A stretch of 64,000 nucleotides of DNA from contig JAAYBH010000045.1 in NCBI GenBank assembly GCA_012718935.1, forward strand, positions 1-64,000, in the 5' to 3' direction. Made by a program: the position numbers and the translations under genes. Below, in pieces: positions 14,407-44,451 of the stretch (positions are counted from its first letter, which is position 1; every line of letters starts with the position of its first letter). The DNA is from Clostridiales bacterium (lineage in GTDB: Bacteria; Bacillota; Clostridia; Oscillospirales; Oscillospiraceae). The notes under the pieces are model-generated. The model ran no database searches. It had not been told where the DNA came from and worked only from the letters and a program-made list of their open reading frames with translations.

Positions 14407-14419
14407 GGTTCTTCCTTTC

Positions 14420-16473: not shown

Positions 16474-17490
16474 TTACTTATTCATGCCCGGCATAATCAT
16501 CTTGGACGATGCCATGTTCTTTCTGGTCTTTCGAGTCTTGAAACTGTCGAGTGTGAGCGCAATGACGAGCAGCATGCCGTTGACAAGGGTGACAAACCAA
16601 AGCGGCAGCTGCATGGATTGCAGTGCATAGGACAGCACTGAGATGAGTATGACGCCGCAAAATGCCGCACCGAGGCTGCCCGACCCGCCCATGAAGGATA
16701 TACCTCCGAGAATAGCTGACGTCAGCGCCGTCATTTCCGGCATCAATACGATCAGACCGGTGGGATTGTACATTTTCTGCTGTGATGACCAGATCAGACC
16801 GCCGATTGCCGCCAGGATACCGTTATTGACATAGAGCATGCTTTTGATCTTGTTCGGATTAAGCCCGGCCAGACGCGACGCCAGGGGATTACCCCCCACC
16901 ATCAGAATGCTCCTGCCGAACCGTGTCCATTTTAGTACAAAGCTGTAAACAATGATGACAGCAACAACAAAGACAAACAGCCATGGGATGGGGGTACTAC
17001 CAATAGTGGCAGAGCTCATTTTAGTAAACGCCGGATTGTTGATCGCCACATAGTTTCCTTTGGTTGCCCATCTGGCAAGGCCGCCCCAGACCGACGCCAT
17101 GCCGATGGTCGCAATAAAAGGCATCAGCCTGAGCCCATGCGCCAGAAAGGCGTTAATGCCTCCGCAGAGGGCGCCGGTAATAATTGCAGCCAGAGCAGCA
17201 ACCGTCCAGGGGATACCGGGGAACCATTGCATGCATTTCAAAAATATGAGCGTACTGATCGTCGCATGGGCGCTTGTCGCGAAGTCAAAACCTCCGCCCA
17301 TGAGAAGCATTGCAACGCCCACACCGAAGATCCCGGCAAAGCACAGGTTTGACAAGAGCTGCTTGGCATTACCTGTTGTAAATGAGCCTGGTGTATCAAT
17401 ATATGTAATCACAAGGACAATCAGGATGAGGATTATAAGAAGGGCGGACTTTCCGCTCATCATCTTTTTAAGCAAGGATCGTTTCTTCAT
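16474..17490 (-). CDS. ABC importer permease, ribose type
   Basis: A 338-residue membrane protein with about 8-10 hydrophobic helices and the RbsC/BPD_transp_2 signature regions: GGFDFATSAHATIS, SVWGGLARWATKG, FGRSILMVGGNPLASRLAGL and LGGISFMGGSGSLGAAFCG. It is the second permease of the importer encoded at 21628-16474. With the permease at 19085 it could form a heterodimeric pore, since the two differ in sequence and flank the ATPase gene. Its stop is 44 nt before the AprA-like gene, so transport and catabolism appear to be co-transcribed. Confidence 0.92.
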   Translation of the reverse strand: MKKRSLLKKMMSGKSALLIILILIVLVITYIDTPGSFTTGNAKQLLSNLCFAGIFGVGVAMLLMGGGFDFATSAHATISTLIFLKCMQWFPGIPWTVAALAAIITGALCGGINAFLAHGLRLMPFIATIGMASVWGGLARWATKGNYVAINNPAFTKMSSATIGSTPIPWLFVFVVAVIIVYSFVLKWTRFGRSILMVGGNPLASRLAGLNPNKIKSMLYVNNGILAAIGGLIWSSQQKMYNPTGLIVLMPEMTALTSAILGGISFMGGSGSLGAAFCGVILISVLSYALQSMQLPLWFVTLVNGMLLVIALTLDSFKTRKTRKNMASSKMIMPGMNK

Positions 17491-17503
17491 GTCATATTCT
17501 CCC

Positions 17504-19039
<1,536 letters not shown>

Positions 19040-19084
19040 AAAAGCTGCTCTCGCTTTCTATCATGTTGATTCAGGAAATTCAAA

Positions 19085-20098
19085 CTAAACGCCGAGGCGT
19101 TTGTTTTGCCGCTTCTGACTCCAGACATCGAGCGTTAGCGCAAAAATCAGCAGCGCACCCGACAACACCGATGTGAGATATGTACTGGAGCCGCCGATCA
19201 TCATGCCCTTGTAGAAGGTCTTGAGTAAAAGCAGTCCGACAAAAGCGCCGCCCATGCCGCCTGAGCCGCCGGAAAAGGAGATGCCGCCTAAAATTGCCGC
19301 GGTAAGCCCTGTAAACTGATCACCGCTCAGCGCCTGCAGACTGCCTTGCTTTGAACGTGCCGTATAGATCACGCCGGATAAGCCTCCAAGCAGTGAGCAG
19401 TTGATAAACAAAAAATAAGAAATCTTCTTGGAGTTAATGCCGGAGAGCCGTGAGGCCATCGGATTTCCGCCGATCATATAGATGCTCCTGCCCATTTTTG
19501 TCTTTTTTAGAATCAAGCCGTAGATAATGAAGGCGACTATGACAAGAAAAACGGTCGCTGGTATAAAACCTGCCACAGAATAATTGCCGACACTGGTGAG
19601 CGTGGAGTCTTTAAAATTAATGTTGCTCTGCATGACGCCCTGAGAATCTGTTGCAAGCAGCAGCATGATCGCTTTGACGATGGCGGTCATCGCCATTGTC
19701 GCGATAAAGGGAACGAGCCTGAGCTCATTGACAAGTATTGCGTTGATCAAGCCGACGGTGCCTGCCAAACCAAGGGCAATGATGACGCCGAGATACCAGG
19801 GCAGGCCCCACCAGGATATGGAGATGGCGACAATAATGCCCGTCATTGCTCCGACCGAAGCCTGGGACAGATCAATGGCCCCGGACACAATCAGGCATGC
19901 GGCGCCAATAGCGAGAAAGGCCGGAACGGCAAGATCCTGAAGGATGCCGATAAATGTATTGGCACTGAAGAATCTGGCATCATTCAGTAATGCAAGAATT
20001 GTAAAAATCAGAATCAATATTGCAAGCAGAATGACAAGGGTAAAGGCTTGGGATCGAATCATTCTTTTGAGAAATGAAGTTCTGGATAAATTATCCAT
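19085..20098 (-). CDS. ABC importer permease, ribose type
   Basis: A 337-residue integral membrane protein of the RbsC family, with motifs SGAIDLSQASVGAMTGI, LVPFIATMAMTAIVKA, GRSIYMIGGNPMASRLSGI and LGGISFSGGSGGMGGAFVG. An AAGGAGG ribosome site is present. It is separated from the upstream solute-binding protein gene by 159 nt holding a strong hairpin (20190-20227), which probably lowers expression of the membrane part relative to the binding protein. It pairs with the permease at 16474. Confidence 0.92.
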   Translation of the reverse strand: MDNLSRTSFLKRMIRSQAFTLVILLAILILIFTILALLNDARFFSANTFIGILQDLAVPAFLAIGAACLIVSGAIDLSQASVGAMTGIIVAISISWWGLPWYLGVIIALGLAGTVGLINAILVNELRLVPFIATMAMTAIVKAIMLLLATDSQGVMQSNINFKDSTLTSVGNYSVAGFIPATVFLVIVAFIIYGLILKKTKMGRSIYMIGGNPMASRLSGINSKKISYFLFINCSLLGGLSGVIYTARSKQGSLQALSGDQFTGLTAAILGGISFSGGSGGMGGAFVGLLLLKTFYKGMMIGGSSTYLTSVLSGALLIFALTLDVWSQKRQNKRLGV

Positions 20099-20189
20099 AC
20101 AAACCTCCTTAATACCTTATTTCTCAATACGGCCACTGAGCTGAATCTCAGGCTTTGCAGCACAATGTCCCGGCATTTGCGTTCAGCGT

Positions 20190-20227
20190 GGAAACCGGCT
20201 CCCAGAAGATATGAGGAGCCGGTTTCC
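20190..20227 (-). terminator. Hairpin attenuator between binding protein and permease
   Basis: A perfect 13-bp stem, GGAAACCGGCTCC (20190-20202) with GGAGCCGGTTTCC (20215-20227), around a 12-nt loop. There is no clear U-tract on the minus strand, so it could be a processing/stability hairpin protecting the binding-protein mRNA rather than a full terminator. Confidence 0.6.
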
Positions 20228-20257
20228 GGGAACTGTCATCTCAATTGGAGGGAATGC

Positions 20258-21628
20258 TTATCCGTTGGCTACTTTATAGCTTGCGGGAGGTGTGGCGCGC
20301 GTCGGGAACAGGTTGATGTCCGTCACAGGCGGATACTTCCACACACCCTCCGCGCCGGGTCCAAAGGCGTAAAGGTCAGTCCACTCGAGATAGTCTTTAT
20401 AATTGTCCTTGGTCAAAGGTTGATATGGCAGCATCATGATTGCGTAGCTGTGCTCTTCAATGACCTTGCCGTTTTCGTCCTTAACATCGCCCTTGTCATT
20501 GACATTGACCCAATCCTGGAAGATGGTTTCGGGTGTGGCCTGGCCGGACATATAGGCCCACAGCTGGCAGACGATCGGCTCAGCATAAATTTGCTGAGAG
20601 CTGAATATCGCAAACCGCCATGCGTCGTCAATACCGCTGTCCCAGCGGGTGGGCAGGGCGACGCCGCCTTGACAGGCAGTGCATACCTTATCTGTCATGC
20701 CGAGGTTGTCGGCCGCATTGGCTGCACCGACGGAATAGAGATCGGCCGGTGTGCCGATAAGCCAAACTTCAATGTCACCGGGGTTTGAGAGGAACTGCGT
20801 CGCCAGGTTCTGCGCCGCTGTCTGGTCCGGATATTGCGCGCTGGCAATATCCCCGATAAAGAAGTTTTTGGGGTTTTTATCAGGAGCCGGATCGAATGCG
20901 CCGAATTCCGGATGGAGCTTTGCCCATTGCTGTTCCATGCCAATCCCGCGGTTGTGAATGTCGGGGCTGTACGAATAGTCCAAAAGAAGCATGCCGACTT
21001 TATCATAAGGAACGTCCGGGAATGTCTCGTCTTTCCACTTAACAAGCAAATCCAACGTCTGCATGCCGATGGTGAAATTGTCAAAGCCGACCTGCGGATG
21101 GAGGAGCTGGTAGCTGCCGGAGGAAGCACGGGCCACACCCAGACCGCTTACCCACTCAACACCAGCCTCGCCCAGTATTTCCGCGACACGCTCGTAGTTC
21201 TGTGTACCCGCCTCGAGGATCAGTCCGTCGAAGCCTTGATCGACGAAGGTTTGCATGCCGCTGAGAAACTCATCGGCGCTGTACTGTGTGGGCGCCCAAA
21301 GATTTGTATAGTCAATATTGACTTTGTTTGCCCAGTTTTCATAGGCGACGTCAAATGCATCCCAAAGTTCACCAGCCGTCATGCTGAGGAAAGCAACCTT
21401 GTATTTATCATACTTTGTGTAATCGAAGTCCGGGTCGAAGAATCCTGCTTCTTTGGGATATTTACTGTCGTCCGAGGCCGGCTCGCCGGAAGCGGGTGCA
21501 CTGGAGGCGGGTGCGCTGGAAGCGGGTGCTCCGGAGGCAGGTGTGCTGGTGCCGCTGCTCTGAGAAGCACAGGCAAATAACGATACGATCATGAGGACTG
21601 CGAGAAGGATTGTCAGTGCTTTTTTCAT
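20258..21628 (-). CDS. ABC solute-binding lipoprotein (periplasmic-binding type 1)
   Basis: A 456-residue lipoprotein, longer than the 310-350 usual for ribose-type binding proteins. The signal peptide ends in LFAC (Cys20). Residues about 21-50 are a low-complexity Ser/Ala/Pro linker coded by an imperfect 15-bp repeat (about 21479-21555). The mature domain begins YKVAFLSMTAGELWDAF and includes FVDQGFDGLILEAGTQN and GEAGVEWVSGLG, typical of the type-1 fold. It is the first gene of the importer/AprA-like operon and so reports on its inducer. The ligand is unknown. The extra length and lack of obvious sugar-binding phrases leave room for a polyphenol or glycoside ligand. Confidence 0.88.
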   Translation of the reverse strand: MKKALTILLAVLMIVSLFACASQSSGTSTPASGAPASSAPASSAPASGEPASDDSKYPKEAGFFDPDFDYTKYDKYKVAFLSMTAGELWDAFDVAYENWANKVNIDYTNLWAPTQYSADEFLSGMQTFVDQGFDGLILEAGTQNYERVAEILGEAGVEWVSGLGVARASSGSYQLLHPQVGFDNFTIGMQTLDLLVKWKDETFPDVPYDKVGMLLLDYSYSPDIHNRGIGMEQQWAKLHPEFGAFDPAPDKNPKNFFIGDIASAQYPDQTAAQNLATQFLSNPGDIEVWLIGTPADLYSVGAANAADNLGMTDKVCTACQGGVALPTRWDSGIDDAWRFAIFSSQQIYAEPIVCQLWAYMSGQATPETIFQDWVNVNDKGDVKDENGKVIEEHSYAIMMLPYQPLTKDNYKDYLEWTDLYAFGPGAEGVWKYPPVTDINLFPTRATPPASYKVANG

Positions 21629-22038
21629 AATAAGTAGATACCCTCCTAAATCTTTCTTGAGCCACTAGGTTTTTGTCTTTTCGCAGCGCGGGCTATACTG
21701 CTCGGGCATGAATCGGATTATGCATCTATTGAATATTATCATATACACCCAGGAATGGGTTCGGACTGCGGATATAATGTTTATGCAGTTTCATTAGACT
21801 TAATTGACGCTTTCAATATTTCTTGGTGTATATTGACGAATCACGCTCTCTCCGCCAGTGCTGGGTTATTCTCACGCATACCACTGTCGGCATTCAAATT
21901 GCTTAGCTTAATATGTGCATACCTACAATGTGGTCCCCGTATCCTGAAACAGGTTTTATTCTGTGTTATAGTGGTGGCATCACCAGGCTGGGACACTATG
22001 AAGACGGAATAATCACTACGTTTACGAGGAGTCGAGCT
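21629..22038. promoter_or_regulatory. Divergent intergenic region between importer and GRE operons
   Basis: A 410-bp gap between the solute-binding protein (minus) and the flavoprotein that starts the glycyl radical cluster (plus). A possible plus-strand promoter is TTGACG (21804-21809), a 19-nt spacer and TATATT (21829-21834); it would leave a leader of about 200 nt. I see no convincing promoter for the minus strand, no riboswitch fold and no coding potential that looks real. Confidence 0.35.
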
Positions 22039-23601
22039 ATGGAATATCTTTTTTACGGAGACCAGGTAAAATACCCCGAGTATACCGTTCGGCATGCGTG
22101 GGACAAACCGCCTGACGTGATTGACGAGACTCTGATCGCCGAGACGATCGAAACGGATGTGGTCATTGTCGGCGGCGGCATCGCAGGCCTGTCCACGGCT
22201 GCCCGGCTGTCGCAGCTCGGTGTAAAGAGCATTGTGCTGGAGAAATTTCACGGCATCGTATCCCATGGCGCGCACGTGGCGTCTGTGGGGTCAAAAATCC
22301 AGCGCGAGAACGGCGTCATCATCGACAAGAAGCAGTTCGCGCGGGACTGGATGCGCATCTGCGGCAGCAGGGTCAACGAGGATCTCCTGTGGTTGTTTAT
22401 CAACAAGAGCGAGGAGGCCTTTGAATGGCTTCTGGAATGTGCCGGGGATGAGGCGTCCCCTGTGCTTCACGGGGGGAATTATAAGGGGCCGGATTTTACA
22501 GAATACCCAGGCACCCAGTTCCTTTCAAAAAAGAAGGACAGCAAGTACAAATTTACCGGTGCGGCGCTTGTCTGTGAGATCATGGAGGATATCGCCCTTA
22601 CCGGCGGCGCCAGGGTCATCCGCAAAACGAAGGTCGAGCAGCTGGAAAAAACCGACGGCCGCGTCACGGCCGCTATCGCCAAGGACGAGAACGGCCTATA
22701 CAGGCGTTACAAAGGCGCCCGCGGCATCGTGCTCGCCACGGGCGACATCGGCGGCAACCCGGAGATGCTGTCGGAGTTTTCTCCGCTGGGTCTCAAGCCC
22801 GCGAAGAACGGCTATTACCCGCCCGGCCTCAACACCGGAGACGGGCACAAAATGGGTTACTGGGCCGGTGGCGCCTTTGAAGACGGGCCGTGGGCACTGT
22901 CCCTGCACATTATCGCCTACGCCTATTACTGCTTCTTCTTTCTGCACGTCAACCGCGAGGGCAACCGCTTTATGAACGAGGACACGTGGATCCAGGCCAA
23001 GGCCATTCGCTGCCTCATGCAGCCCCGCGGTGACTTTGCGTACACGATTTTTGACGCAAAGTGGTTTGAGGAGTGCACGAAGCTCGCCCAATACGGCGGG
23101 GGTCAGTTTGTCGACCCGCTGATCTGTGTTTATGGCCGGCCGTGGGATGAGAACAACGATGTGCAGAAATCCATCGACAATTACATCAAAAATGGTCTCT
23201 GTGTCTGCTGCGATACCATCGCGGAGCTGGCTGAAAAGATCGGCGTCCCCGTTGACAATCTTATCAAGACCGTCAATCGGTATAATGAGCTGTATGAGCT
23301 GGGAGATGATCCTGATTACGGCAAGCGTGCCAATCTGCTCACTCCCATCGTCAAGCCCCCCTATTACGCCCTGAAGTGGGGTCCTGCGCTCCTCAACGTC
23401 TTTGGCGGACTTCTGATCGACACAAAGATGCGCGTTCTGGACAGAGACCACCGTCCTGTTTCCGGTCTGCTGGCGGTAGGCAACGTATCCGGCGGTCTCT
23501 ACGGCGTTGACTATCCTCTGCTGCTCAGCGGCAACAGTCATGGTCGCGCGCTGACCTGGGCGCGTGCCGCAGCTGAGACTCTTTATGCCGACGAAGCATA
23601 G
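22039..23601 (+). CDS. Soluble flavoprotein reductase (fumarate reductase/KstD-like)
   Basis: A 520-residue flavoprotein from the ATG at 22039, which follows GAGGAG; the frame runs further upstream without a start signal. The FAD motif [18 protein letters not shown] is followed by a central FAD_binding_2 domain with NREGNRFMNEDTW and the C-terminal flavin segment GNVSGGLYGVDYPLLLSG. There is no signal peptide, heme-binding CxxCH or FMN-binding domain, so it is a cytoplasmic NAD(P)H- or ferredoxin-coupled reductase or dehydrogenase acting on C=C bonds next to a carbonyl. It heads the GRE gene cluster, 142 nt upstream of the GRE. Substrate unknown. Confidence 0.87.
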   Translation: MEYLFYGDQVKYPEYTVRHAWDKPPDVIDETLIAETIETDVVIVGGGIAGLSTAARLSQLGVKSIVLEKFHGIVSHGAHVASVGSKIQRENGVIIDKKQFARDWMRICGSRVNEDLLWLFINKSEEAFEWLLECAGDEASPVLHGGNYKGPDFTEYPGTQFLSKKKDSKYKFTGAALVCEIMEDIALTGGARVIRKTKVEQLEKTDGRVTAAIAKDENGLYRRYKGARGIVLATGDIGGNPEMLSEFSPLGLKPAKNGYYPPGLNTGDGHKMGYWAGGAFEDGPWALSLHIIAYAYYCFFFLHVNREGNRFMNEDTWIQAKAIRCLMQPRGDFAYTIFDAKWFEECTKLAQYGGGQFVDPLICVYGRPWDENNDVQKSIDNYIKNGLCVCCDTIAELAEKIGVPVDNLIKTVNRYNELYELGDDPDYGKRANLLTPIVKPPYYALKWGPALLNVFGGLLIDTKMRVLDRDHRPVSGLLAVGNVSGGLYGVDYPLLLSGNSHGRALTWARAAAETLYADEA

Positions 23602-23743
23602 CGCCGCGGTTTGTAAAGGCATGTTCTTCGCTTCCGGGTTCAAATATGAGATGTGGAATTCAGACTGTGCAAATAATGTTAAATCGGAAAAGATATGATA
23701 TCGTAAATACATGGAATGTTTTCGTCTGAAAGGATGTGGTATT

Positions 23744-26188
23744 ATGTACAATTTCAGGCCGATTTCCAGTCGCATTTCACGCATGCGCGACCGCATCCGC
23801 AACCGTGTGATCCGGCTCGACTCCGAACGCGCGATGATCGTAACGGAAGCTTATCAGGATATTATCAACCTCGTTCCCACCATCAGAAGACCAACTCTTC
23901 TAAAAGCGGTGACCTCCAATGTAACCCTGCGCGTCGAGGATGACGATGTGCTCGTGGGCAACAGAGGCCGATACTTTAGCAGTCATGTCTGTTACCCGGA
24001 GGGTAAAGAAGGTCACGGCTGGTTGGTCGACAGTATTCGGCGAGGCGAGTGGAAACTGGAAGCAGATGGCCTATGGCACAATCCGGCCACAGAGGATTTG
24101 CGGCTGGTCGCTTCGCCGGAGGATGTGGCGAATATTGAAAAAATTCAGGATTTTTGGAAGGGCAGAACCTTCGATTGTATCGGAGACGGCTGGGCGCCGG
24201 CGGGTATTGATGAGCTGAAACGGCTGGGTGCAACAAAGCATTCCGTATTCATGAAGCATCTGATTGGCTGTCGGCCGGGCCACATGATTCCGGGGCATAG
24301 AAAAATCATTGACATGGGTTACGGCGCCATCCGAAAACAGGCGCAGGACTGGCTGGACAGTCATTTCGGCAATGTCATGGGCCGCGATGTCAAGAAATAT
24401 CTGTTTTACTCCTCCGCCGTCATAGCATGTGATGCGGCGACCATTTTTATCCGCCGCTATGGCGACGCATGCCTTCAGAAGGCGGCGGCCGAGAGGAATC
24501 CCGTCCGGAAGGCGGAGCTCGAACGCATGTCCGACAGCCTCTACTGGATCTCCGAGAATCCCGCGCGCACCTTCTGGGAAGCCGTACAGGCCTCCCTCCT
24601 CTATGAGCTTCTCTTGTATCAGGACGGCTGCGCAGCCTTTTCGATCGGACGGTTCGATCAGTTCACATATAAATATTTCAAGCGGGATATTGAATCCGGC
24701 GCCCTGACGTTGGATGAGGCGCAGGAAATCGTGGACGCGTATTTTCTCAAGCTCAACAATTGCTACGGCGGCGGGACTCAGTATATCGTCCATATGATCG
24801 GAGCCATTACATACCAACACACCACCATTGGGGGTGTGGACCGCGACGGGAAAGACGCCACAAATCCTGTCAGCTATATGGTTCTGGAGTCTATCGCGCG
24901 GCTCAAGCTGCATGACCCGACCATTTCCCTCCGCATCAACAAGGATACGCCGAAGGAAATCTGGGAGCTCGCCATTGAGACGACAAAGCTCGTGGGCGGC
25001 TTACCACTGTTCCAAAACGACGACGTCATCATCAAAGGCCTGGTGCGGGAGAACGGCTTTTCTATTGAGGACGCGCGGGAATATGCCATCATGGGTTGCC
25101 AGGAGATCATGGGCCCCGGAATGGAATACCCCTGTGCCAACGGCAACACAGCACCGTACTCCAGCCTCAACTACGGTGTCGTCTTCAGTATGGCAATCAA
25201 CGACGGCAAGAACCCTTTTAACGGAGAGCAGTGCACGATCCATACTGGGTACCTCTACGAAATGACCTCCATTGAAGAGGTCCGCGAGGCCATGCGGAAG
25301 CTTGTCTACTACCTCATCAAGCTTCAGGTCAGCGTGGATAACTACACGGAGTATCTGCATCAGTTCTACGGTACGGAAAATTTGGTATCCCTGAGCATGG
25401 AAGGCTGCATGGAAACGGGCATGGATGCAACCTGGGGCGGCTGCAAGTACAACTCCTACGGCGGCACAGCCACCGGCCTTGCTACAATTGCCGATTGTCT
25501 GACATCTATTAAGTATATGTGCTTCGACAAGAAGATCTGTACGACGCGGGAGCTTTATAATGCCGTCATGGCCAACTGGCAGGGCTACGAGCCGCTCCGC
25601 CAGCGGATTCTCACTGAGGTGCCGCACTACGGCAACGGCGACAGCTATGCCGACATGGAGATGAAGTGGATTTGCGACACATATTATGACGCCTGCAAGG
25701 AATGTAGCAGCATGCGCTGCACGAATTACAAAGCCGGCCTCTACGGCGCCGCGGATCATGTGACCCAGGGCTATACCACCTGGGCGACGCCGGACGGGCG
25801 ATTCACGGGAGAACCCATCGCAGACGCCAGCTCACCGGCCCAGGGCCGGGATTTAAACGGACCGACCGGCGTCTTTACCTCTTCTGTCTGTTTTGATCAT
25901 TCGAAATACATGGACGGCCTCGCGGTAAACCTGAAAATCCATCCGAGCGCGCTCAGCGGGCACGACGGCATTGAGAAGCTTCGGGACATGACGCTTGTTT
26001 ATTTCGAAAACGGCGGTATGGAGGTCCAGTATAACGTCGTCTCCGCAGAAATTTTGCGGGAAGCCCAGGCCAGTCCGGAGGAGTATAAGGATCTTGTTGT
26101 CCGGATTGCCGGCTTCAGCGCGTACTTTGTCGAGCTCAGCCGGGACTGCCAGAACGACTTAATTAAAAGACACGATCACAGCATATAG
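23744..26188 (+). CDS. Glycyl radical enzyme of unassigned function
   Basis: An 814-residue member of the pyruvate formate-lyase superfamily. The ATG at 23744 follows AAAGGATG. The active-site Cys is Cys452 in AIMGCQEIMGPG, with Glu454 two residues on as in dehydratase/decarboxylase-type enzymes. The usual form there is GCVEP, so the Gln and the absence of Pro are unusual. The radical-bearing Gly790 lies in LVVRIAGFSAYFVELS, 24 residues from the C-terminus. GLYGAADHVTQGYTTWATPDGR, a family hallmark, is near 665-690 (two fragments of one region). The enzyme needs a radical-SAM activase; none is present in the window. Context points to C-C or C-O bond cleavage of an aromatic or polyol substrate, but which is unknown. 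Confidence 0.9.
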   Translation: MYNFRPISSRISRMRDRIRNRVIRLDSERAMIVTEAYQDIINLVPTIRRPTLLKAVTSNVTLRVEDDDVLVGNRGRYFSSHVCYPEGKEGHGWLVDSIRRGEWKLEADGLWHNPATEDLRLVASPEDVANIEKIQDFWKGRTFDCIGDGWAPAGIDELKRLGATKHSVFMKHLIGCRPGHMIPGHRKIIDMGYGAIRKQAQDWLDSHFGNVMGRDVKKYLFYSSAVIACDAATIFIRRYGDACLQKAAAERNPVRKAELERMSDSLYWISENPARTFWEAVQASLLYELLLYQDGCAAFSIGRFDQFTYKYFKRDIESGALTLDEAQEIVDAYFLKLNNCYGGGTQYIVHMIGAITYQHTTIGGVDRDGKDATNPVSYMVLESIARLKLHDPTISLRINKDTPKEIWELAIETTKLVGGLPLFQNDDVIIKGLVRENGFSIEDAREYAIMGCQEIMGPGMEYPCANGNTAPYSSLNYGVVFSMAINDGKNPFNGEQCTIHTGYLYEMTSIEEVREAMRKLVYYLIKLQVSVDNYTEYLHQFYGTENLVSLSMEGCMETGMDATWGGCKYNSYGGTATGLATIADCLTSIKYMCFDKKICTTRELYNAVMANWQGYEPLRQRILTEVPHYGNGDSYADMEMKWICDTYYDACKECSSMRCTNYKAGLYGAADHVTQGYTTWATPDGRFTGEPIADASSPAQGRDLNGPTGVFTSSVCFDHSKYMDGLAVNLKIHPSALSGHDGIEKLRDMTLVYFENGGMEVQYNVVSAEILREAQASPEEYKDLVVRIAGFSAYFVELSRDCQNDLIKRHDHSI

Positions 26189-26230
26189 ATAATTCTCATA
26201 CAACCATAATAGTTAGGGGATCCGATTTGC

Positions 26231-27340
26231 ATGAAGTACGACAGGCCGGTTTACGGGAATCCGAATGCCCAAAAATCCAAAATAAAATTACGCGGCACTC
26301 TCGAACTGGAGCTTCCGGCATTCAACTTTCCCGTTTCCCCGAAGGAAAATTTCAAGCTAGCTGCTCAGCGGAAAACCCCGTATTGGATGCCGAGTTCTCT
26401 CGCCGACAATCAAACACTGATGGCACAGGACCTGGTAACCGGAGATGTCAGAGGCATGCAGTCCAGTGCCGACATCTCAAGACCTGCTAAAGAGAATTAT
26501 ACTTTTTTTGACTGGTTTCACACCAATTGGACCTGGGTCACCACGGCAGGCGGTCCGATGCTGACGCCGGGTTTTGTCCTGTGCGACGATATCACCCAGT
26601 GGGAACGCGACATCATATTCCCCGATCTGCGTGAGTGGGATTTTTCGACGTCAGCAACTGAATTCATGAGGAAGTGGTACGACCCGTCCAGAGTGATGCA
26701 TATCAACATCGGCCAGGGCGCGACGGAGCGTCTTGTCTCCGTCCTGGGCGGATATACCGGTGCCATGCTGGCGCTCGCGTCTGAGCCTGAGGCCGTCCGG
26801 GGTTTTCTTGACCGCTTCGCGGATTTCACGATCAGCTATGTGGATCTGATCTCCAGTCTGTATCCGGTGGATCTCATTACCTATCACGATGACTGGGGTA
26901 CGGAAAAGGATACCTTCTTCGGCGAAATGATGATGGAGGAGATCGTCTTTGAGCCGACAAAGCGCATTGTGAACCATATAAAATCAAAGGGAGTTTTGTT
27001 TGAATTTCATTGCTGCGGCAATATCACCCGTTTTATCCCGTATATGATTGATCTTGGTATGGACTTTTTGCAGCTGCAGCGCCGGGCCGTCGATATCCCA
27101 GCCTTAAAGCACAAATACGGAGACAAAATCGGCTTCAACGTTTTCGTCGAGGGCGCGGTTGCCGGTCAGGCCTATTCACTGGAAGAAATGACGAACAAAC
27201 TCCGCGACACTGTAAATCTCTACGGCAAAAACGGCGGCGCCTATGTCAATATTTTCGAGATGCATCCTGAAAAGGCCTGGAGCATTGTCAGCGAGCTGTA
27301 CTGTTACAGCCGTGAGTATTACGACGCGGAACGCAGCTAA
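26231..27340 (+). CDS. UroD-fold methyltransferase (MtaA/CmuA-like), copy 1
   Basis: A 369-residue protein of the uroporphyrinogen-decarboxylase fold. The conserved patterns are HDDWGTEKDTFF (the catalytic-cleft Asp-Asp-x-Gly segment), FEFHCCGN and a C-terminal barrel. The His-x-Cys in HCCG matches the zinc site of corrinoid:thiol methyltransferases such as MtaA rather than true UroD. It lies 42 nt after the GRE gene and 72 nt before the AprA-like gene, so it is part of the GRE operon. No corrinoid protein is encoded in the window. It could transfer a methyl group, or catalyse another reaction that uses the barrel. About 30 extra N-terminal residues are present. Confidence 0.82.
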   Translation: MKYDRPVYGNPNAQKSKIKLRGTLELELPAFNFPVSPKENFKLAAQRKTPYWMPSSLADNQTLMAQDLVTGDVRGMQSSADISRPAKENYTFFDWFHTNWTWVTTAGGPMLTPGFVLCDDITQWERDIIFPDLREWDFSTSATEFMRKWYDPSRVMHINIGQGATERLVSVLGGYTGAMLALASEPEAVRGFLDRFADFTISYVDLISSLYPVDLITYHDDWGTEKDTFFGEMMMEEIVFEPTKRIVNHIKSKGVLFEFHCCGNITRFIPYMIDLGMDFLQLQRRAVDIPALKHKYGDKIGFNVFVEGAVAGQAYSLEEMTNKLRDTVNLYGKNGGAYVNIFEMHPEKAWSIVSELYCYSREYYDAERS

Positions 27341-27412
27341 ATAGAGCTGATCAACAGCAGACCGCTCTGTCGTGTCTTGTACTGACAAATGCGGATATCA
27401 GGAGGATTACCC

Positions 27413-29413
27413 ATGGAATACCGAAACTACATAGCAAGATGTCTGCCGCTTCAATGGCCCTACAAGGTCGCTTACGAAAAGGAAACCTCCGACGAATGTG
27501 ATGTGCTTGTCATCGGCGGCGGCCTGGCCGGGTCTTTTGCTGCGATAAACGCCGCAAAAAAAGGCGCACGCGTCATCGTGACGGATAAAGCAGCGATCAT
27601 CCGGAGCGGCTGTGCGGGCGTCGGTATAGACCACTGGGGTTCCGTCTATACGAATCCCTGCTCAAAATATACGCCCGATGAGATTTTGGAACAAAAAATT
27701 ACCGTCAGAGTGAAAGATGACCCCTACGCAATGGAATTTGCCTCCTATATCACCATGCAGGAGAGCTGGGAGGCGGTACTCGAGCTGGAGGAATACGGCA
27801 TCGATATCCGGGACAGTCAGGATGAGTTCGCCGGGGCGCCCTTCAGGGACGAAGAGACAAAACTCATGTTCGCGTATGACTATGAAAACAAGCATACGCT
27901 GCGCCTGAAAGGCGCCGACCTGAAGCCGGCGCTTTACAGGGAAATGAAGCGTCTCAAGATTAAAATGTATGACAGGGTCATGGCGACATCACTCCTGAAC
28001 GAAGGCGGCAAGGCGGGAAATCGGATAATCGGGGCGACCGGCGTTCATACCAGGACGGGTGAATTCTTCATTTTCAAGGCAAAGACAACGATATTGTCCA
28101 CCGGTAAACCGTTGCGTCTGTGGGAGTTTGCCACGGATCTCGTCGGTTCCAATGCAAATCATGACGACCCGAACAGCGCCGGAGACGGCGATGTGATGGC
28201 CTGGCGTGCCGGCGCCAAACTGATGATGCTGGAAAAAAGCCATTCGAGCTCAGCCGGCAGAAGATATCCGGCTTATGGTACCGGCAATTGCGACAACACG
28301 TGGCGCCCATGCTCGATTGTTGATGCGACCGGCAAGGAAATTCCCTGGCAGGATCGCGACGGCAATATCCTGACAAACGTCGAGGATCGGATGAAACCTG
28401 CGCCAGGCCAAAGGTTTATGCTGGGCGGAGGAAAGCATATCCCCTACGATCTAAGGGGCCCCTCCCTGATTGATGATCTGGAAAGCCGAATCCGGTCCGG
28501 AGAGTATAAATTGCCTTTTTTCGCTGATCTGTCGAACCTTCCGGATTACGAGCGCCGTGCCGTTTTCGGGCTGATGCTCGGGAATGAAGGTAAAACAAGG
28601 GTTCCCATTCTTGAGACCCTCCAAAACGCAGGCTTTGATCCGGAAAAAGATATGCTCCAGGCAAATGTTCTCTCACCCGAGTATACGGGCGCTGATTTGA
28701 CATGGTGGGATGTGAAGGCGCCCGGTATCGGAGGACCCAATATCCGCGACACCGCGTTTATGGGCGGCGGGGGCATTGTTGTGGATTGGTCACTTAAAAG
28801 CACGCTGGACGGCCTTTACGCCGCGGGCAACCAAATTGCCGGTGTGTCGGGAGCGGCTTCAGCCGCTTCCACAGGCCGGTACGCCGGGCGTAATGCGGCT
28901 GTCTACGCGCGATCCCAAATGCTCGTCCAGCCCTCCCAAGCGCAGATTCAGGCCGAAAAAAAGCGTGTCTATGCCTATGTTCAGCGGGAAAAGGGGTACG
29001 GATGGAAGGAAGTCCAGTTGGGGCTGTGCCGCATCATGCAGGATTATTGCGGAGACTACAGGACCAAGGAAATCATGGAGATGGGGCTCTGGTGGTTTAA
29101 TTCAATCCGTGAGAACGAACTGGCAAGCACCTTCGCGGCGAACCCGCACGATCTGGGAAAAGCCCTCGAGGTGGAAACCAGGCTGACAATCTGTGAGATC
29201 ATCCTTCACCTATGTCTGGCACGAGAAGCCAGCAGCCCCAGGCTCGGGCTTAACAGGCTGGATTATCCTGACAATGGAGATCGTTGCGGTTACTTTATTG
29301 CGGTTTCGCTCCGGAATGAACAGGCAGCCATTGAAAAGATTCCATACTACTATTGGCGCAGCGAGGAATCCTTCCGCTCCTGTTATAAACGTTACTGCTG
29401 TAAAGAAGCGTGA
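27413..29413 (+). CDS. AprA-like FAD reductase subunit (copy 2)
   Basis: A 666-residue flavoprotein. The ATG at 27413 is 7 nt after AGGAGG (27400-27405); an upstream in-frame start is not needed. The FAD motif CDVLVIGGGLAGSFAAINAA is followed by RSGCAGVGIDHWGS and YTNPCSKYTPDE, the same blocks as in the protein at 14420. It is soluble. Its stop overlaps or abuts the ferredoxin gene, which confirms an AprAB-like pair. It is co-transcribed with the GRE and a UroD-fold protein, so it may supply a reduced substrate to, or reduce a product of, the GRE. Not expected to be adenylylsulfate reductase, as no sulfate activation genes are nearby. Confidence 0.88.
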   Translation: MEYRNYIARCLPLQWPYKVAYEKETSDECDVLVIGGGLAGSFAAINAAKKGARVIVTDKAAIIRSGCAGVGIDHWGSVYTNPCSKYTPDEILEQKITVRVKDDPYAMEFASYITMQESWEAVLELEEYGIDIRDSQDEFAGAPFRDEETKLMFAYDYENKHTLRLKGADLKPALYREMKRLKIKMYDRVMATSLLNEGGKAGNRIIGATGVHTRTGEFFIFKAKTTILSTGKPLRLWEFATDLVGSNANHDDPNSAGDGDVMAWRAGAKLMMLEKSHSSSAGRRYPAYGTGNCDNTWRPCSIVDATGKEIPWQDRDGNILTNVEDRMKPAPGQRFMLGGGKHIPYDLRGPSLIDDLESRIRSGEYKLPFFADLSNLPDYERRAVFGLMLGNEGKTRVPILETLQNAGFDPEKDMLQANVLSPEYTGADLTWWDVKAPGIGGPNIRDTAFMGGGGIVVDWSLKSTLDGLYAAGNQIAGVSGAASAASTGRYAGRNAAVYARSQMLVQPSQAQIQAEKKRVYAYVQREKGYGWKEVQLGLCRIMQDYCGDYRTKEIMEMGLWWFNSIRENELASTFAANPHDLGKALEVETRLTICEIILHLCLAREASSPRLGLNRLDYPDNGDRCGYFIAVSLRNEQAAIEKIPYYYWRSEESFRSCYKRYCCKEA

Positions 29414-29418
29414 GAAAA

Positions 29419-29751
29419 ATGTATAACGCGTATTTTTTACCGAATCCCGCTGTACCAAACGAATGCGTTGCCTTTGACGAAACGAAATGCATCGGCTGCA
29501 ATACGTGCGTCAATGTCTGCCGCTGCGACGTCATGCTGCCGAACCCGGAAAGAGGTAAGCCGCCGATCGTCACATATCCCGACGAATGCTGGTTCTGCGG
29601 TGCGTGCGTATCCGATTGCCCCGTTCAGGGTGCAATCCGGATGAACCATCCGATCAACCAGCGTATTGCCTGGAAACGCAAAGAAACAGGTGAAATATTC
29701 CGCGTGAAATACAGCTACATGAAAGAAACAGAATACCGGCATGAGCCTTAG
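29419..29751 (+). CDS. AprB-like ferredoxin subunit (copy 2)
   Basis: A 110-residue 2[4Fe-4S] protein. The ATG at 29419 is preferred; a GTG at 29410 that overlaps the flavoprotein stop would add three residues. Cluster motifs: CIGCNTCVNVCRCD, where Arg replaces the usual Pro after the fourth Cys, and CWFCGACVSDCP. The tail IAWKRKETGEIFRV is shared with the copy at 14065. It is translationally coupled to the AprA-like gene and presumably wires it to the cellular ferredoxin or NADH pool. It is the last gene of the GRE operon; the convergent regulator gene ends 3 nt away. Confidence 0.9.
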   Translation: MYNAYFLPNPAVPNECVAFDETKCIGCNTCVNVCRCDVMLPNPERGKPPIVTYPDECWFCGACVSDCPVQGAIRMNHPINQRIAWKRKETGEIFRVKYSYMKETEYRHEP

Positions 29752-29754
29752 GCG

Positions 29755-31404
29755 CTATGAAGAGAATCCTTTGCGCTGCGCTGTCTCTTCATTCTGGTCC
29801 GTATATGTGTCGGGGTGCGACCCGGGGGCAATTCTTGGGGTTGCGCCGGGATAATCAACATCGGAAAGCGCATTGTTGTTGATCAGACGCAAAATCATAC
29901 AGGAGAGCAGAATGTGTAAACGTTCGAAGGGATCCTCAAGCTGCATCGGCGTAATATTTTCTATGCACTTGATCCTGTAGGCCAGGGTACTTCGGTGAAT
30001 AAACAGTTTGCTTGATGCGGTTAAGAGGCTCCTGTTGCTAAGCAGATAGGCTTCCAGCGTCTCAAGAAAATTTGTTTTATTTGCGATATCATATTCCTGC
30101 AAGCGAAAGGCTGCGTGATGGCACACAGCACGAAGCGGAAAACAGGAACTCAGATCGTTGATGATGTGCATTCCAAGGACGTCGCGGTAGTATTTGATGC
30201 GGCACTTCGACAGAGATGAGACTCTGTGCGGCAGCATCGCGAGGTTATATTGAAGCTTCAGTATATTAAAATCGCAGAACTTCATGCCGATACTGCATGA
30301 CCCATTGTTCAGTTTCAGCTGTTTTTTCAACAGCGGTATATTTTTCTCGAGCAAGGAGCAAGCGTCATTGTGCAGCAGCACGAAGATGAAGTCGTCAAAC
30401 CAAAAGGCAACACAATCGGAATAGGAGCCTGCAAAAACATTCTCGTAATCATACAAAAAATGGCTTATATTCTTATCCTCCGGTGGAAGCTTCACAAGCA
30501 GGATCTGATAGTCGTCGTTTGTACGCCAACCAAGACGCGCCATATTTGTGTGCAGGAATTTTGATTCCATAACGGTCGAATAGCGAAGCGCTGTTGTAAT
30601 GCTCGCCCGGAAGTAGTCATGTACGTCAACAAAGGTGTTAAACCGTTCAATCACGGTTTTATGCAGGATTTCTGCTATACAGTCTGTCAGCCACAGGTGA
30701 TGACCTGACAGAGCGCCATAAGTCCTTGAAAAGATCAGAGTCGCGACACGCGAACTCTTGTATTCGAACGAAATACTGATATAGTCCCGGCTGGCATCGC
30801 CTGAACTCAGAAAGGTCGATCGCGGACTCGGCTTCGATTTTATCTGGCGTTCCTTGGCTGTCTCTCCCGGGTTCATGGGTAATACCCAATGATTGGCTGC
30901 GAGCGTCTCTTGCCAGATAGTATTGCTATCCGGCGGCAGGTTGATGTCGCTGTACCCAAGAAGAGCCATATCCGAACCATAGAGAGAGACGTGACAATCC
31001 AGAAACGCAGCACAGGCATTGAGTACCGTCTGAAGCGACTTGTTCGTCAGAAGCGCATCCAATAATGCCCGTTCATGGTCGGCATATTTGAAGAAGCTGT
31101 TCTGTATTTCAAGCATGATGGCTGACTGGTTGCTGTCAGCTGAGTAAATCAACCCCCTGACCTGGTGTTTATCAAGCAGCGTAACCGCGTTACCTCCGCC
31201 ACCCAGACAGATAACGTTTTCAGGTAACCGGTGCAGTTCCCGAAGCTGCGGCCACTGTGCCAAATACAAAATATCCTCGGCATAAGGCCGTTCTGCGATA
31301 AAGGGACATATGCCTATCAGATTCATCGCGCCACCCGGACATCCCACAACGTGTTCATAAGGCGTTTCCAGGTAATCCATAATCATACCTAAATTGAGTT
31401 TCAC
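29755..31404 (-). CDS. PucR/CdaR-type transcriptional regulator
   Basis: A 549-residue regulator. The GTG at 31404 is chosen because GGGGAGG lies 6 nt upstream; an ATG at 31410 directly abuts that site, and a TTG at 31422 includes it. The C-terminal about 60 residues carry the PucR-type helix-turn-helix: LETLEAYLLSNRSLLTASSK, then LFIHRSTLAYRIKCIE. A GGDEF-like/CdaR central region and a PucR N-terminal purine-catabolism-like domain (about 1-120) precede it. It is convergent with the GRE operon and divergent from the two UroD-fold genes, and so is the best candidate regulator of both. Such proteins are usually activators that sense catabolic substrates. Confidence 0.82.
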   Translation of the reverse strand: MKLNLGMIMDYLETPYEHVVGCPGGAMNLIGICPFIAERPYAEDILYLAQWPQLRELHRLPENVICLGGGGNAVTLLDKHQVRGLIYSADSNQSAIMLEIQNSFFKYADHERALLDALLTNKSLQTVLNACAAFLDCHVSLYGSDMALLGYSDINLPPDSNTIWQETLAANHWVLPMNPGETAKERQIKSKPSPRSTFLSSGDASRDYISISFEYKSSRVATLIFSRTYGALSGHHLWLTDCIAEILHKTVIERFNTFVDVHDYFRASITTALRYSTVMESKFLHTNMARLGWRTNDDYQILLVKLPPEDKNISHFLYDYENVFAGSYSDCVAFWFDDFIFVLLHNDACSLLEKNIPLLKKQLKLNNGSCSIGMKFCDFNILKLQYNLAMLPHRVSSLSKCRIKYYRDVLGMHIINDLSSCFPLRAVCHHAAFRLQEYDIANKTNFLETLEAYLLSNRSLLTASSKLFIHRSTLAYRIKCIENITPMQLEDPFERLHILLSCMILRLINNNALSDVDYPGATPRIAPGSHPDTYTDQNEETAQRKGFSS

Positions 31405-31542
31405 TGTCATCCTCCCCGTCAAACAATAAAACTATTCCGTCGTACAACGCGTAAAAACAATTTATTAAATACCTGATGATCATAAATACACAAAACACGG
31501 CTGCGTGAATACGCTGATGCGCTATTGAAAGGAAACATACAA

Positions 31543-32538
31543 ATGACATTGACACCGAAAGAAAACTATATCAAGATGCTCCATGGTGAAATCCCGGAAT
31601 TTATACCATCAATGCTGTATGCAACGCACAGTGCTCCTATCGGCGACGAGATGCTCACACCTCAATCGGCACCGAACGGGCCGGTGATGACGGCGTACGG
31701 AGTTGAATATGTCGGCAGCAAGGATATCAATAACGGTGCCATGCCGGCGCCCGGGAAAACACTTCTGAATGACATCCGAAAATGGCGTGATGTCATTAAA
31801 AACCCCGACACGCGGCATAGGGATTGGGAGGCATACTACAAGAAGAAGATCGATACGATCGATCGCGCTAATATGGCGGTTTCCTGTGTCGGCGGGGATT
31901 ATTTTTTGACACTGGTCAGCTTTATGGGGTTTGAGCAGGCATTGATGGCAATGTTTGAGGAGCCTGAAGAGGTCTACGCTCTCTTTGATTATGTTTCCGA
32001 GCACTATCTGAACGTCATGCGTCAGCAACTCAGGTATCTGAAGCCCGAGCTCTATACCATCATGGATGACGACGCCGCCTATCGCTCACCGTTCTTTTCC
32101 GTGGATATGTACCGGCAGCTTGTAAAACCCTTCCATAAAAAACATGCCGATCTCGCCTTGGAAAACGGTATCCTTTTAGAGCGTCACGACTGTGGGCGCT
32201 GTGAATGCTTCATCGACGACTGGCTGGAACTCGGCATCAAAAGCTGGAATCCAGCACAGGTTTCGAACGATCTGGTGGCGATAAAAAAGAAATACGCCGG
32301 CAAACTGGCCTTGTGCGGCTGCTGGGATAATCAGGGTAAGTTCAGCAGCCCGCTGATTGACGATGAGACATTGCGCGAAGCGCTTTATACATACGTTGAC
32401 ACGTTTGCGCCCGGCGGTGGATTCTCCTTCACAGCGAGCTTTATGGGATTTGCCGACGATCCGATTGCAAACAAGAAAAGAGAAATTATCCGTGATTTCT
32501 ATCACAGTTACGCTAAAAACTACTATCAAACACACTAA
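31543..32538 (+). CDS. UroD-fold methyltransferase (MtaA/CmuA-like), copy 2
   Basis: A 331-residue protein from the ATG at 31543, with GAAAGGA upstream; the frame begins with a TTG at 31525 that overlaps the ribosome site. UroD-fold features: TPKENYIKMLHGEIPEF at the N-terminus, typical of MtaA-like proteins, YTIMDDDAAYRSPFFS at the cleft, and the zinc-type motif ERHDCGRCE (His-x-Cys). It starts a two-gene operon divergent from the PucR-type regulator. A methyl-transfer role fits the zinc motif, for example moving methyl groups from a corrinoid during O-demethylation of methoxylated phenolics, but no corrinoid protein is nearby. Confidence 0.8.
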   Translation: MTLTPKENYIKMLHGEIPEFIPSMLYATHSAPIGDEMLTPQSAPNGPVMTAYGVEYVGSKDINNGAMPAPGKTLLNDIRKWRDVIKNPDTRHRDWEAYYKKKIDTIDRANMAVSCVGGDYFLTLVSFMGFEQALMAMFEEPEEVYALFDYVSEHYLNVMRQQLRYLKPELYTIMDDDAAYRSPFFSVDMYRQLVKPFHKKHADLALENGILLERHDCGRCECFIDDWLELGIKSWNPAQVSNDLVAIKKKYAGKLALCGCWDNQGKFSSPLIDDETLREALYTYVDTFAPGGGFSFTASFMGFADDPIANKKREIIRDFYHSYAKNYYQTH

Positions 32539-32550: not shown

Positions 32551-33516
32551 ATGAAAGAGAAAGAAAACATCCTGCGATGTTACAGACATCTGTTACCTGA
32601 TCACCTCCCTGATTTGTCACAAGGACATCAGATGATTCTGCCGGCCGGCTTTAATGAGGTACCGCCGTATGAACAGGGAGGCCTTGATTGGTTCGGAGTT
32701 CTTTGGCGTACCGAAACGCCGGCGGCTATCCCCGATCCGATGGCGCCGAGGGTTCTGACCGATATCTCAAAATGGCGTGAGCAGGTTAAATTCCCGGATC
32801 TGGATCTGTGGGACTGGGATAACGCAGTCATTGTTGATAAAGTCGATGTTTTTGACAGAGAAAACAAGCTGATGGAGGTCCTGATTAAGGAAGGCCCCTT
32901 TGAGAGGATACACGCACTGATGGGTATGCAGGAGGCGCTCACTGCCCTTCTGACCGATCAGGAGGAGTTTATAGCACTGGCGTCCGCGATTACCGATTTT
33001 AAATGTCAACTGATCAACAAGGTTGCGCAGTACTACAAACCAGATATTATCAATTTCCATGACGATTACGGTACTCAGAAAAGCATGATGCTCTCACCGG
33101 TGCTTTGGCGGCGGATATTCAAACCGCTGATTCAAAAGGTCGTTGCCGTTTGCCACAGCCACGGGATCTTTTTTGATCTGCATTCATGCGGGCTAATCGA
33201 ACCCATCATACCCGAGCTCGCGGAAATTGGCGTTGATTGCCTCAACTGCATGCCGATCAATGACATTCCGAAAATGAAAGAGCTGACCAGCGATAAACTC
33301 ACCTTCTTTGTCGGCTTTGATGTGCAGAAATACGAGCTTTGCGACCGGACGGGACAGTTAACAGGCGATATCCGGAACGAAATCCGTGAAACGATCGCTG
33401 CCTGGGGAAAAAATGGGAATTATCTTCCGAGCAATCGCCTGAGTGAATGGTGGGTAAGCAAAGTCATTGCGGAGGAACTGGAAAACATGCGTTGGACAAT
33501 GTACCCAGCGCTCTGA
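32551..33516 (+). CDS. UroD-fold methyltransferase (MtaA/CmuA-like), copy 3
   Basis: A 321-residue protein, 12 nt after copy 2 and with a GGAGG ribosome site. It has NFHDDYGTQKSMMLSPVLW at the cleft (matching HDDWGTEKDTFF in copy 1) and FDLHSCGLIEPIIPE with the His-x-Cys zinc motif. It is closer in these blocks to copy 1 than to copy 2. Copies 2 and 3 may work as a heteromer or on consecutive substrates. A strong hairpin terminator follows at 33523-33561. Substrate unknown; true uroporphyrinogen decarboxylase activity is unlikely given the zinc motif and the absence of heme genes. Confidence 0.82.
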   Translation: MKEKENILRCYRHLLPDHLPDLSQGHQMILPAGFNEVPPYEQGGLDWFGVLWRTETPAAIPDPMAPRVLTDISKWREQVKFPDLDLWDWDNAVIVDKVDVFDRENKLMEVLIKEGPFERIHALMGMQEALTALLTDQEEFIALASAITDFKCQLINKVAQYYKPDIINFHDDYGTQKSMMLSPVLWRRIFKPLIQKVVAVCHSHGIFFDLHSCGLIEPIIPELAEIGVDCLNCMPINDIPKMKELTSDKLTFFVGFDVQKYELCDRTGQLTGDIRNEIRETIAAWGKNGNYLPSNRLSEWWVSKVIAEELENMRWTMYPAL

Positions 33517-33621: not shown

Positions 33622-34401
33622 TCAGAACTGATCCTTGAATTCCGCATACACTTTCGGCAGAATTACCGCAAGATTTGTGAATTCCTTGATATTATGAAGA
33701 AGAAGCTCCTTGACGCCGTCAGTCGGGATTTTTGCGCCGTCAGGCAGCATTTTAAACGGCTTCCCTTCCCGGACACCCCAACCGGTCCAGAAGCGGGTCC
33801 TGAGCTCCGACCCTCCCTCTGTTGGGCGGACAAAATGCACCATGATGACAGGCGCGTGTTCATTTCCGGCGCAGACGATCGTGCCCTTGAAGTCTTTGAG
33901 TTTTTCCTTATCAAAGCCGATATCGGCAGGATTGCGGAAATTGATCATTATATCAAGGACAGGCCCCTCGGGCGACATGGCTTCCTTGACGTCGTGAATT
34001 GTATCCCAATAACGCTCTTTCATTGAAAGTGACGAATCCCGGGCTTTTTCAGGATTCCGTGTAATGGCCTGGTGGTGCTCGTCATGACACCATATTTTAT
34101 ACCTGAGCGGCTCCAGGCCATGCCAGGCGAACCACCAGTCGAACATATCGGGTGTGACGCCCGGCATCAGTGTATGATTGGCAAGCATTGCGGTGCCATC
34201 CTCAAACTGGGTATAGCCGATCTCTCCGTACATATAACCTTCGTCGAAAAGCTTGTTGAGGTCGGGAGCTCTGTGTGCCTTAGCCGGATCAAGCGGTGTT
34301 TCTGCTTTTTTGTAACTCTCGGCGGGTGGGGTCGCCATTTCCATTACGAAATACTTGTAAAGCGGGCTGTTCATTTCAGCACCAGTGATGGGTACCGGCA
34401 T
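33622..34401 (-). CDS. PhlG-type C-C hydrolase (phloretin/DAPG hydrolase family), copy 1
   Basis: A 259-residue member of the DAPG_hydrolase family, whose known members are PhlG of Pseudomonas (cleaves an acetyl group off diacetylphloroglucinol) and the phloretin hydrolase of Eubacterium ramulus (gives phloroglucinol and phloretate). Metal-site blocks are intact: FDWWFAWHGLEPLRYKIW with His, MKERYWDT with Glu, and LLHNIKEFTNLA with the His-x-x-x-Glu pair. It is the last gene of the ABC importer/OYE operon. Together with the OYE it suggests reductive opening of a flavanone or chalcone followed by hydrolysis to phloroglucinol. The exact substrate is inferred. Confidence 0.85.
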   Translation of the reverse strand: MPVPITGAEMNSPLYKYFVMEMATPPAESYKKAETPLDPAKAHRAPDLNKLFDEGYMYGEIGYTQFEDGTAMLANHTLMPGVTPDMFDWWFAWHGLEPLRYKIWCHDEHHQAITRNPEKARDSSLSMKERYWDTIHDVKEAMSPEGPVLDIMINFRNPADIGFDKEKLKDFKGTIVCAGNEHAPVIMVHFVRPTEGGSELRTRFWTGWGVREGKPFKMLPDGAKIPTDGVKELLLHNIKEFTNLAVILPKVYAEFKDQF

Positions 34402-43279: not shown

Positions 43280-43313
43280 ACTGGTGTACTCCATTTCATT
43301 AGAAAAGCCTTTA

Positions 43314-43383
43314 TGTCATTCCCGCGAAAGCGGTAATCTACTTTATACGGCGAGTGTGGTTTCCCGCCTGCGCGGGAATGACA
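43314..43383. repeat. Twin REP-like palindromic element
   Basis: A 70-bp element bounded by a 12-bp inverted repeat, TGTCATTCCCGC (43314-43325) and GCGGGAATGACA (43372-43383). Each end also has a small internal hairpin (CCGC-GAAA-GCGG and CCCGC-CTGC-GCGGG). It resembles the widespread 'CATTCCCGC' intergenic palindromes found in many bacterial genomes. It occupies the 112-nt gap between the cyclase-family and BKACE genes. Confidence 0.7.
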
Positions 43384-43391
43384 GTTGTGCC

Positions 43392-44441: not shown

Positions 44442-44451
44442 CGAAACACGG

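Follow-up and report, generated by a model that had tools for sequence, protein, structure and literature searches.

A GCQE-type glycyl radical enzyme and its genomic neighborhood beside a phloroglucinol-degradation gene set

Glycyl radical enzymes (GREs) catalyze some of the hardest reactions of anaerobic metabolism, and every subfamily characterized so far has added a capability to the known metabolic repertoire. For the active-site residues of glycerol dehydratase (GDH), the mechanistic roles established for that enzyme family are assumed. Precedent for glycoside-like substrates comes from YbiW and PflD, which are GREs of 1,5-anhydrohexitol 6-phosphates (PMC12441222). A gene set for the anaerobic degradation of phloroglucinol has been described in Clostridium scatologenes (PMC10470551), and Sporobacter and acetogens are users of methoxylated aromatics (PMC8359953).

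Here we analyze a GRE encoded in a window of 64,000 nucleotides (positions 1–64000 of contig C297, genome G000) from a Clostridiales bacterium, a Sporobacter-related gut-type anaerobe whose genome comprises 3.3 Mb in 541 contigs and belongs to the same GTDB genus as relative G005. A first-pass annotation had presented this GRE as an orphan and its locus as a candidate for an undescribed system. It is one of 14 GREs in the host genome and a member of a double subfamily; the subfamily is confirmed and uncharacterized, its neighborhood has been partly corrected, and the locus does not constitute a categorically new system.

The window GRE and its subfamily

The five open reading frames (ORFs) annotated initially are all present, although 22039, given as the flavoprotein start, is an inner in-frame ATG of the longer ORF listed in Table 1. 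Likewise, the residues first numbered Cys452 and Gly790, counted from an inner ATG at 23744, are Cys463 and Gly801 of the 825-residue ORF; both are intact, as are the active-site phrase GCQEI and, within it, the catalytic CxE dipeptide. Chance is of no concern, because the proteins of the locus are conserved and full-length and orthologues of the GRE share 74–86% identity with it.

The protein matches the Pfam families PFL-like (483.8 bits) and Gly_radical (89 bits), and its AlphaFold2 (AF2) model (pTM 0.81, with the active-site loop modeled at low confidence) has the ten-stranded barrel of the GRE fold, the closest PDB entry being glycerol dehydratase 1r8w (TM 0.87). Assignment to a known GRE failed by NCBIfam profile, PDB sequence, and PDB fold. 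Scores fell short of every NCBIfam cutoff: hydroxyproline dehydratase, 443 of 1100 bits; CutC, 386 of 1050; HpsG/HpfG, 412–453 of 1000; IAD, 348.6 of 1100; HPAD, 301 of 1150; PflD, 335 of 1109; and PFL, 131 of 994. The nearest solved structures, glycerol and propanediol dehydratases (PDH), are 27–29% identical, HPAD and BSS rank with the most remote of the matched structures (21–23%), and identity to IslA, HplG, N-methyl-hydroxyproline dehydratase, YbiW, BSS, and MasD is 23–28%. Thus, the high identity to a characterized family that would have argued against a clade of unassigned chemistry was not found, no solved GRE exceeding about 30%. Plasmid records contained relatives of only 29–31% identity, and our literature search found no characterized or ether-cleaving GRE of the GCQE type.

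In a tree of 107 GREs, including 77 GCQE and 22 GCVEP sequences, GCQE(I/V/L) marks a monophyletic subfamily of 77 tips (hereafter Q), the sister of a subfamily that retains GCVEP (V). Their joint clade (support 1.0) excludes GDH, PDH, 9rco, HypD, YbiW, PflD, and PflB; for CutC, IslA, HPAD, IAD, BSS, and HplG, which the tree lacks, exclusion is by score or identity only. The split between Q and V has weak support (0.52), yet the motif separates the two cleanly. This placement outside the reference GREs, together with the failed cutoffs, bears out the initial view of the clade.

No member of Q (77 sequences) or V (22 sequences) departs from the Cys, CxE, and Gly. Between Cys and Glu, the change from valine to glutamine is fixed in Q (77/77), and isoleucine replaces the proline following CxE in 74 of the 77. 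The equivalent of GDH His164 (His191 in the window GRE) is kept in 76/77 Q and 22/22 V sequences; this histidine is found in the aligned C–O-cleaving references GDH, PDH, HypD, YbiW, and PflD, while the C–N lyase CutC has aspartate. GDH His281, Ser282, and Asp447 correspond to A308, A309, and P482 in the window GRE and are mostly replaced across Q, Asp447 in both groups, whereas His281, retained in V, has been replaced in most of Q. The loop following CxE is four to five residues longer in Q than in GDH. Judged from these alignments, the C–O lyase machinery appears to be kept in Q and V and the pocket changed; because substrate residues are replaced and the loop is longer, the Q reaction could differ from that of GDH.

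Partners of the GRE in the window and in orthologue loci

Table 1. Features of the window around the GRE
Feature	Position	Strand	Evidence
Ribose-type sugar ABC transporter, whole	16474–21628	-	ATPase and binding protein also in L073, binding protein also in L074
Permease	16474–17490	-	
ATPase	17504–19039	-	
Permease	19085–20098	-	
Binding protein	20258–21628	-	
Soluble flavocytochrome-c/fumarate-reductase-type flavoprotein (FAD_binding_2)	21913–23601	+	profile matches
GRE, GCQEI subfamily, 825 aa	23711–26188	+	PF02901/PF01228, subfamily tree, AF2 model
GRE codon Cys463	25097–25099	+	residue position
GRE codon Gly801	26111–26113	+	residue position
UroD1, UroD-fold, MtaA-like with HxC motif, recurrent GRE neighbor	26231–27340	+	PF01208 39.7 bits; AF2; linkage
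AprA/FrdA-like flavoprotein	27389–29413	+	PF00890; best PDB match PAPS-reductase alpha subunit
2x[4Fe-4S] ferredoxin, AprB-like	29410–29751	+	profile matches
PucR/CdaR-type regulator	29755–31422	-	PF13556; beside GRE in L073/L094 and L074 too
UroD-fold protein 2	31525–32538	+	PF01208
UroD-fold protein 3	32551–33516	+	PF01208
DAPG/phloretin-hydrolase-family C–C hydrolase	33622–34401	-	PF18089 226 bits
Old-yellow-enzyme/BaiCD-like Fe-S flavoenzyme	34480–36468	-	profile matches
Phloroglucinol-degradation set, whole	42431–48968	-	gene set as in PMC10470551
KCE/TAL-like protein	42431–43294	-	
Cyclase (HTGTHAD)	43392–44363	-	
HADH	44452–45381	-	
SDR	45394–46194	-	
Second DAPG/phloretin hydrolase	48171–48968	-	

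The two closest contiguous relatives (L073/L094 and L074) keep the GRE, UroD1, the PucR regulator, the DAPG/phloretin hydrolase, and the sugar-binding protein; in L073 the transporter ATPase is 80% and the binding protein 75% identical to those of the window. The AprAB-like pair, which had been counted among the core partners, is absent from both. AprA-like genes adjoin the GRE only in L093 and L104, the pair in L104 being a related one; the pair is accessory. Nor was the soluble flavoprotein a conserved partner, as it occurs in orthologue loci L095 and L097 only at a distance. Identification of the pair as AprAB itself was rejected, the flavoprotein scoring 73.7 of 641.75 bits for aprA and the ferredoxin 27 of 135.65 for aprB, far below the equivalog cutoffs. 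Two more AprA-like flavoprotein and ferredoxin pairs lie in the window, one inside the phloroglucinol region (46205–47896, 47957–48151) and one at 14176–16429, with 43% identity to the 27389–29413 protein.

Outside the span first annotated, we identified an orthologue-specific partner of the window GRE, namely the first of the two DAPG/phloretin hydrolases in Table 1. Its PF18089 score is well above the gathering cutoff of 22.7 bits; a PhlG equivalog (NF047887) was rejected at 95 of 600 bits. This hydrolase is linked to the GRE in the window, L073/L094, L074, L099, and L103; about 95 other GRE loci showed no such link, and four other rumen orthologues are without the hydrolase. The order in the rumen loci L099 and L103, whose activases are nearly identical, is hydrolase–activase–GRE. 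In the window the hydrolase lies 7.4 kb from the GRE and is not contiguous with it. The hydrolases of L099/L103 and the UroD gene of L074 were located by tblastn, these GC-rich loci containing long antisense ORFs.

The GRE shares the window with a near-complete set of phloroglucinol degradation genes. The KCE-like protein carries a TTGAW motif whose tryptophan matches that reported for CsTAL (PMC10470551), and the cyclase carries HTGTHAD. Two adjoining MGH1-like glycoside hydrolases are encoded at 59607–62959, and L136, L150, and L082 have related hydrolases close to their clade GREs.

A UroD-fold gene lies within 400 bp of a Q gene on the same strand in 7 of 84 Q loci, about 0.3 being expected from the host-genome density of 23. 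The AF2 model of UroD1 (pLDDT 92.5) is nearest in fold to MtaA of M. mazei, its best PDB match; HxC is present, while the third cysteine of the zinc site HxC...C is absent. Its profile scores fall below the cutoffs of the MtaA/CmuA methyltransferase subfamilies (TIGR01463, 20.1 of 235 bits; MtaA, 25.6 of 400). No corrinoid protein was seen near the UroD genes; the genes at 3614 and 4312 encode a response regulator and a histidine kinase.

Co-occurrence of the two subfamilies and activation

GREs were counted as Q at 46% identity or more and as V at 36–44% identity to the window GRE, motifs being checked wherever loci were read. All ten relatives with Q also hold V, and V occurs alone in none. 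Both are present in 21 of 23 genomes from other taxa, the two exceptions being MAGs, and among 393 Clostridia genomes, scored for two candidates each, all seven V carriers hold Q; the genomes in these counts are not phylogenetically independent. The genes are carried by Sporobacter-type gut Clostridia and by acetogens, some with more than 20 copies. Cultured hosts include Sporobacter termitidis, Acetobacterium paludosum, and Sporomusa acidovorans, and every named isolate is either an acetogen or a Sporobacter. S. termitidis has 3 Q and about 7 V genes, so the ratio is not 1:1, and one genome of 2.2 Mb contains as many as 24 matches to the window GRE. Such extreme paralogue expansion (14–24 matching GREs in 1.8–2.6 Mb) was observed in G079, G081, and G082.

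Of 84 Q loci, 9 have a V gene less than 400 bp away on the strand of Q (well under one expected); tandem Q–Q and V–V arrangements exist as well. Across the Q subfamily at large, neighbors are diverse and share no common catabolic theme. In acetogens, genes for aldehyde ferredoxin oxidoreductase (AOR), CoA-transferase, 3-hydroxyacyl-CoA dehydrogenase, and thiolase surround the Q/V pair, as in the L185 operon (GPH symporter–HADH–CoA transferase–SDR–UroD–Q–thiolase–AraC–AOR, with a divergent activase–V), to which L171 and L184 have similar genes. This set is compatible with beta-oxidation of a side chain and with an aldehyde as the product; members therefore probably differ in substrate. The AOR that repeatedly adjoins a Q or V GRE in acetogens (L185 1603–15886, L171, L187) is of the tungsten type.

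Searching the window confirmed that its 64 kb encode no GRE activase. The first-pass conclusion that activation must occur in trans holds as a probability for the window copy; its "must" is too strong, because the cis activases of the orthologues in L099/L103 show that trans-activation does not apply throughout the family. The genome search it had proposed for a dedicated activase yielded six candidates over threshold, none of them beside the window GRE. One is a genuine activase N-terminus that starts some 1.8 kb beyond the window (C297:65823–66348) and is cut by the contig end; it reaches only 47% identity to the closest relative and belongs to a different activase type, so it more likely serves a different GRE and was rejected as the window GRE's own. 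The other five are encoded elsewhere in the host genome, and of these the ones on C112 and C299 share 71–72% identity with activases found close to GREs of the clade. The truncated activase is accompanied, likewise just outside the window, by a UroD-fold gene (C297 64054–66348; L061 4055–6349). The C112 locus (L058, G000:C112) comprises an operon of LysR, activase, UroD, transport, and OYE genes, with no GRE beside it.

An activase adjoins V in 13 of 23 loci versus Q in 8 of 66 (Fisher P = 6e-5), one of the eight being doubtful, since the L104 "activase" is probably an AprB-like ferredoxin. Q genes with a cis activase include those of L105, L117, L193, L099, and L103. G238 and G137, both complete genomes, have solitary Q genes and an activase with V. 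With activases found mostly next to the GCVEP partner, trans-activation of the window GRE is likely, as judged from gene arrangement.

Proposed reaction and comparison with known systems

Our tentative proposal, which falls just short of probable, is that the window GRE is a diol-dehydratase-like radical C–O lyase that prepares a phloroglucinol-ring substrate for the hydrolase; we favor it for bringing the hydrolase, the sugar transporter, and the phloroglucinol pathway together in one scheme. The invariant catalytic residues, the kept histidine, and the dehydratases as best structural matches speak for it; the replaced GDH residues, the longer loop, the small number of hydrolase-linked loci, the distance of the hydrolase in the window, and the diverse neighbors of Q at large speak against it. 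A radical-SAM activase from another part of the genome, normally beside a sister GCVEP-type GRE, would install the Gly801 radical, which would generate a thiyl radical on Cys463; this would abstract hydrogen from an oxygen-bearing carbon, and Glu465 and His191 would help to drive out an oxygen leaving group at the beta position, so that a ketone or aldehyde results. A reaction of the diol-dehydratase type, Ar-CH(OH/OR)-CH(OH)-R to Ar-CO-CH2-R, would yield the acylphloroglucinol type of compound cleaved by the hydrolase family. The product would most likely be such an aryl ketone, or its precursor, formed from a glycoside-like or diol-bearing polyphenol that the cell takes up; flavan-diols and aryl C-glycosides are candidate substrates with this arrangement. 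Chemically, aryl C-glucosides are 1-aryl-1,5-anhydroglucitols, comparable to the 1,5-anhydrohexitol rings on which YbiW/PflD act (PMC12441222). The DAPG/phloretin-type hydrolase would then cut the product, the phloroglucinol released being fermented by the PGR–DPGC–HOHD–TAL set in the window, and the same plant compounds probably undergo O-demethylation by the UroD-fold protein.

The association of Q with V admits other explanations. It is possible, though less likely than not, that Q merely borrows the activase of V for lack of its own and that their substrates are unrelated, as the much stronger linkage of activases to V and the lone Q genes beside activase-bearing V in G238 and G137 would suggest; the Q genes with cis activases and the tandem operons that share UroD and regulators argue against this. 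Rather unlikely, in our estimate, is that the two are obligate partners, as a hetero-oligomer or in consecutive steps, in one general pathway for methoxylated lignin-type side chains. Arylglycerols or beta-aryl ethers, for example, would be the substrates, and an aldehyde released by the GRE would be oxidized by AOR and pass through CoA activation, 3-hydroxyacyl-CoA dehydrogenation, and thiolysis. The tandem Q–V pairs, the co-occurrence across genomes, the L185 operon with its counterparts, and the identity of the named isolates, acetogens or Sporobacter that use methoxylated aromatics (PMC8359953), agree with such a pathway; however, the window copy is unpaired, copy numbers depart from 1:1 in the expanded genomes, Q–Q and V–V tandems exist, and the UroD proteins of L171/L185 lack the HxC motif.

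Two explanations concern the reaction itself. An arylacetate- or arylpropionate-type decarboxylase acting on phenolic acids from phloretin hydrolase would suit the phenolic-acid context, and the CxE motif is common to GRE decarboxylases; given the IAD and HPAD scores and the structural distance of HPAD and BSS, we consider it improbable. Slightly more improbable still is an ordinary diol or glycerol dehydratase: GDH and PDH are the best structural matches, but identity is 29%, three GDH substrate-binding residues are replaced, a loop is inserted, and no alcohol dehydrogenase adjoins the GRE in the window.

The radical C–O lyase reading would make the window GRE a concrete candidate for the O2-free cutting of oxygen-linked plant phenolics, in a genome where a Q/V GRE is tied to the degradation of phloroglucinol-type rings. 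The Q/V pair, which had no characterized member in the libraries and literature searched, is abundant in plant-aromatic-degrading gut and acetogenic bacteria. More speculatively, and with considerable doubt, the large superclade of two interdependent subfamilies might be an anaerobic counterpart of plant-phenolic oxygenases. Its members would then be radical C–O lyases by which acetogens and the gut bacteria of herbivores and termites open C-glycosides, flavan-diols, or lignin-type ethers, expanded to 20 or more paralogues per genome.

Compared with CutC, the window GRE shares the fold and the second motif, EGCMExGxD, and differs in its profile score and in having histidine instead of aspartate at the leaving-group position; no microcompartment genes were noticed near it. 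The C. scatologenes cluster and the window both contain TAL (TTGAW), cyclohydrolase-type cyclase, HADH, SDR, and phloretin-hydrolase-family genes; a term search of the main text of PMC10470551 found no mention of a GRE. With GDH and PDH (1r8w, 5i2a, 9rco), the window GRE shares the fold (TM 0.85–0.87), the equivalents of Cys433, Glu435, His164, Tyr339, and Gly763, and the HMM match order; it differs in overall sequence, in the replaced His281/Ser282/Asp447, in the glutamine and isoleucine around the glutamate, in the longer loop, and in standing without a cis activase or alcohol dehydrogenase beside it. YbiW and PflD differ by their PTS/phosphosugar context, the isoleucine or valine following their cysteine, and an identity of 24–26%; they share with the window GRE the CxE dipeptide, the histidine, and the glycine, and they act on a sugar-ring ether (PMC12441222).
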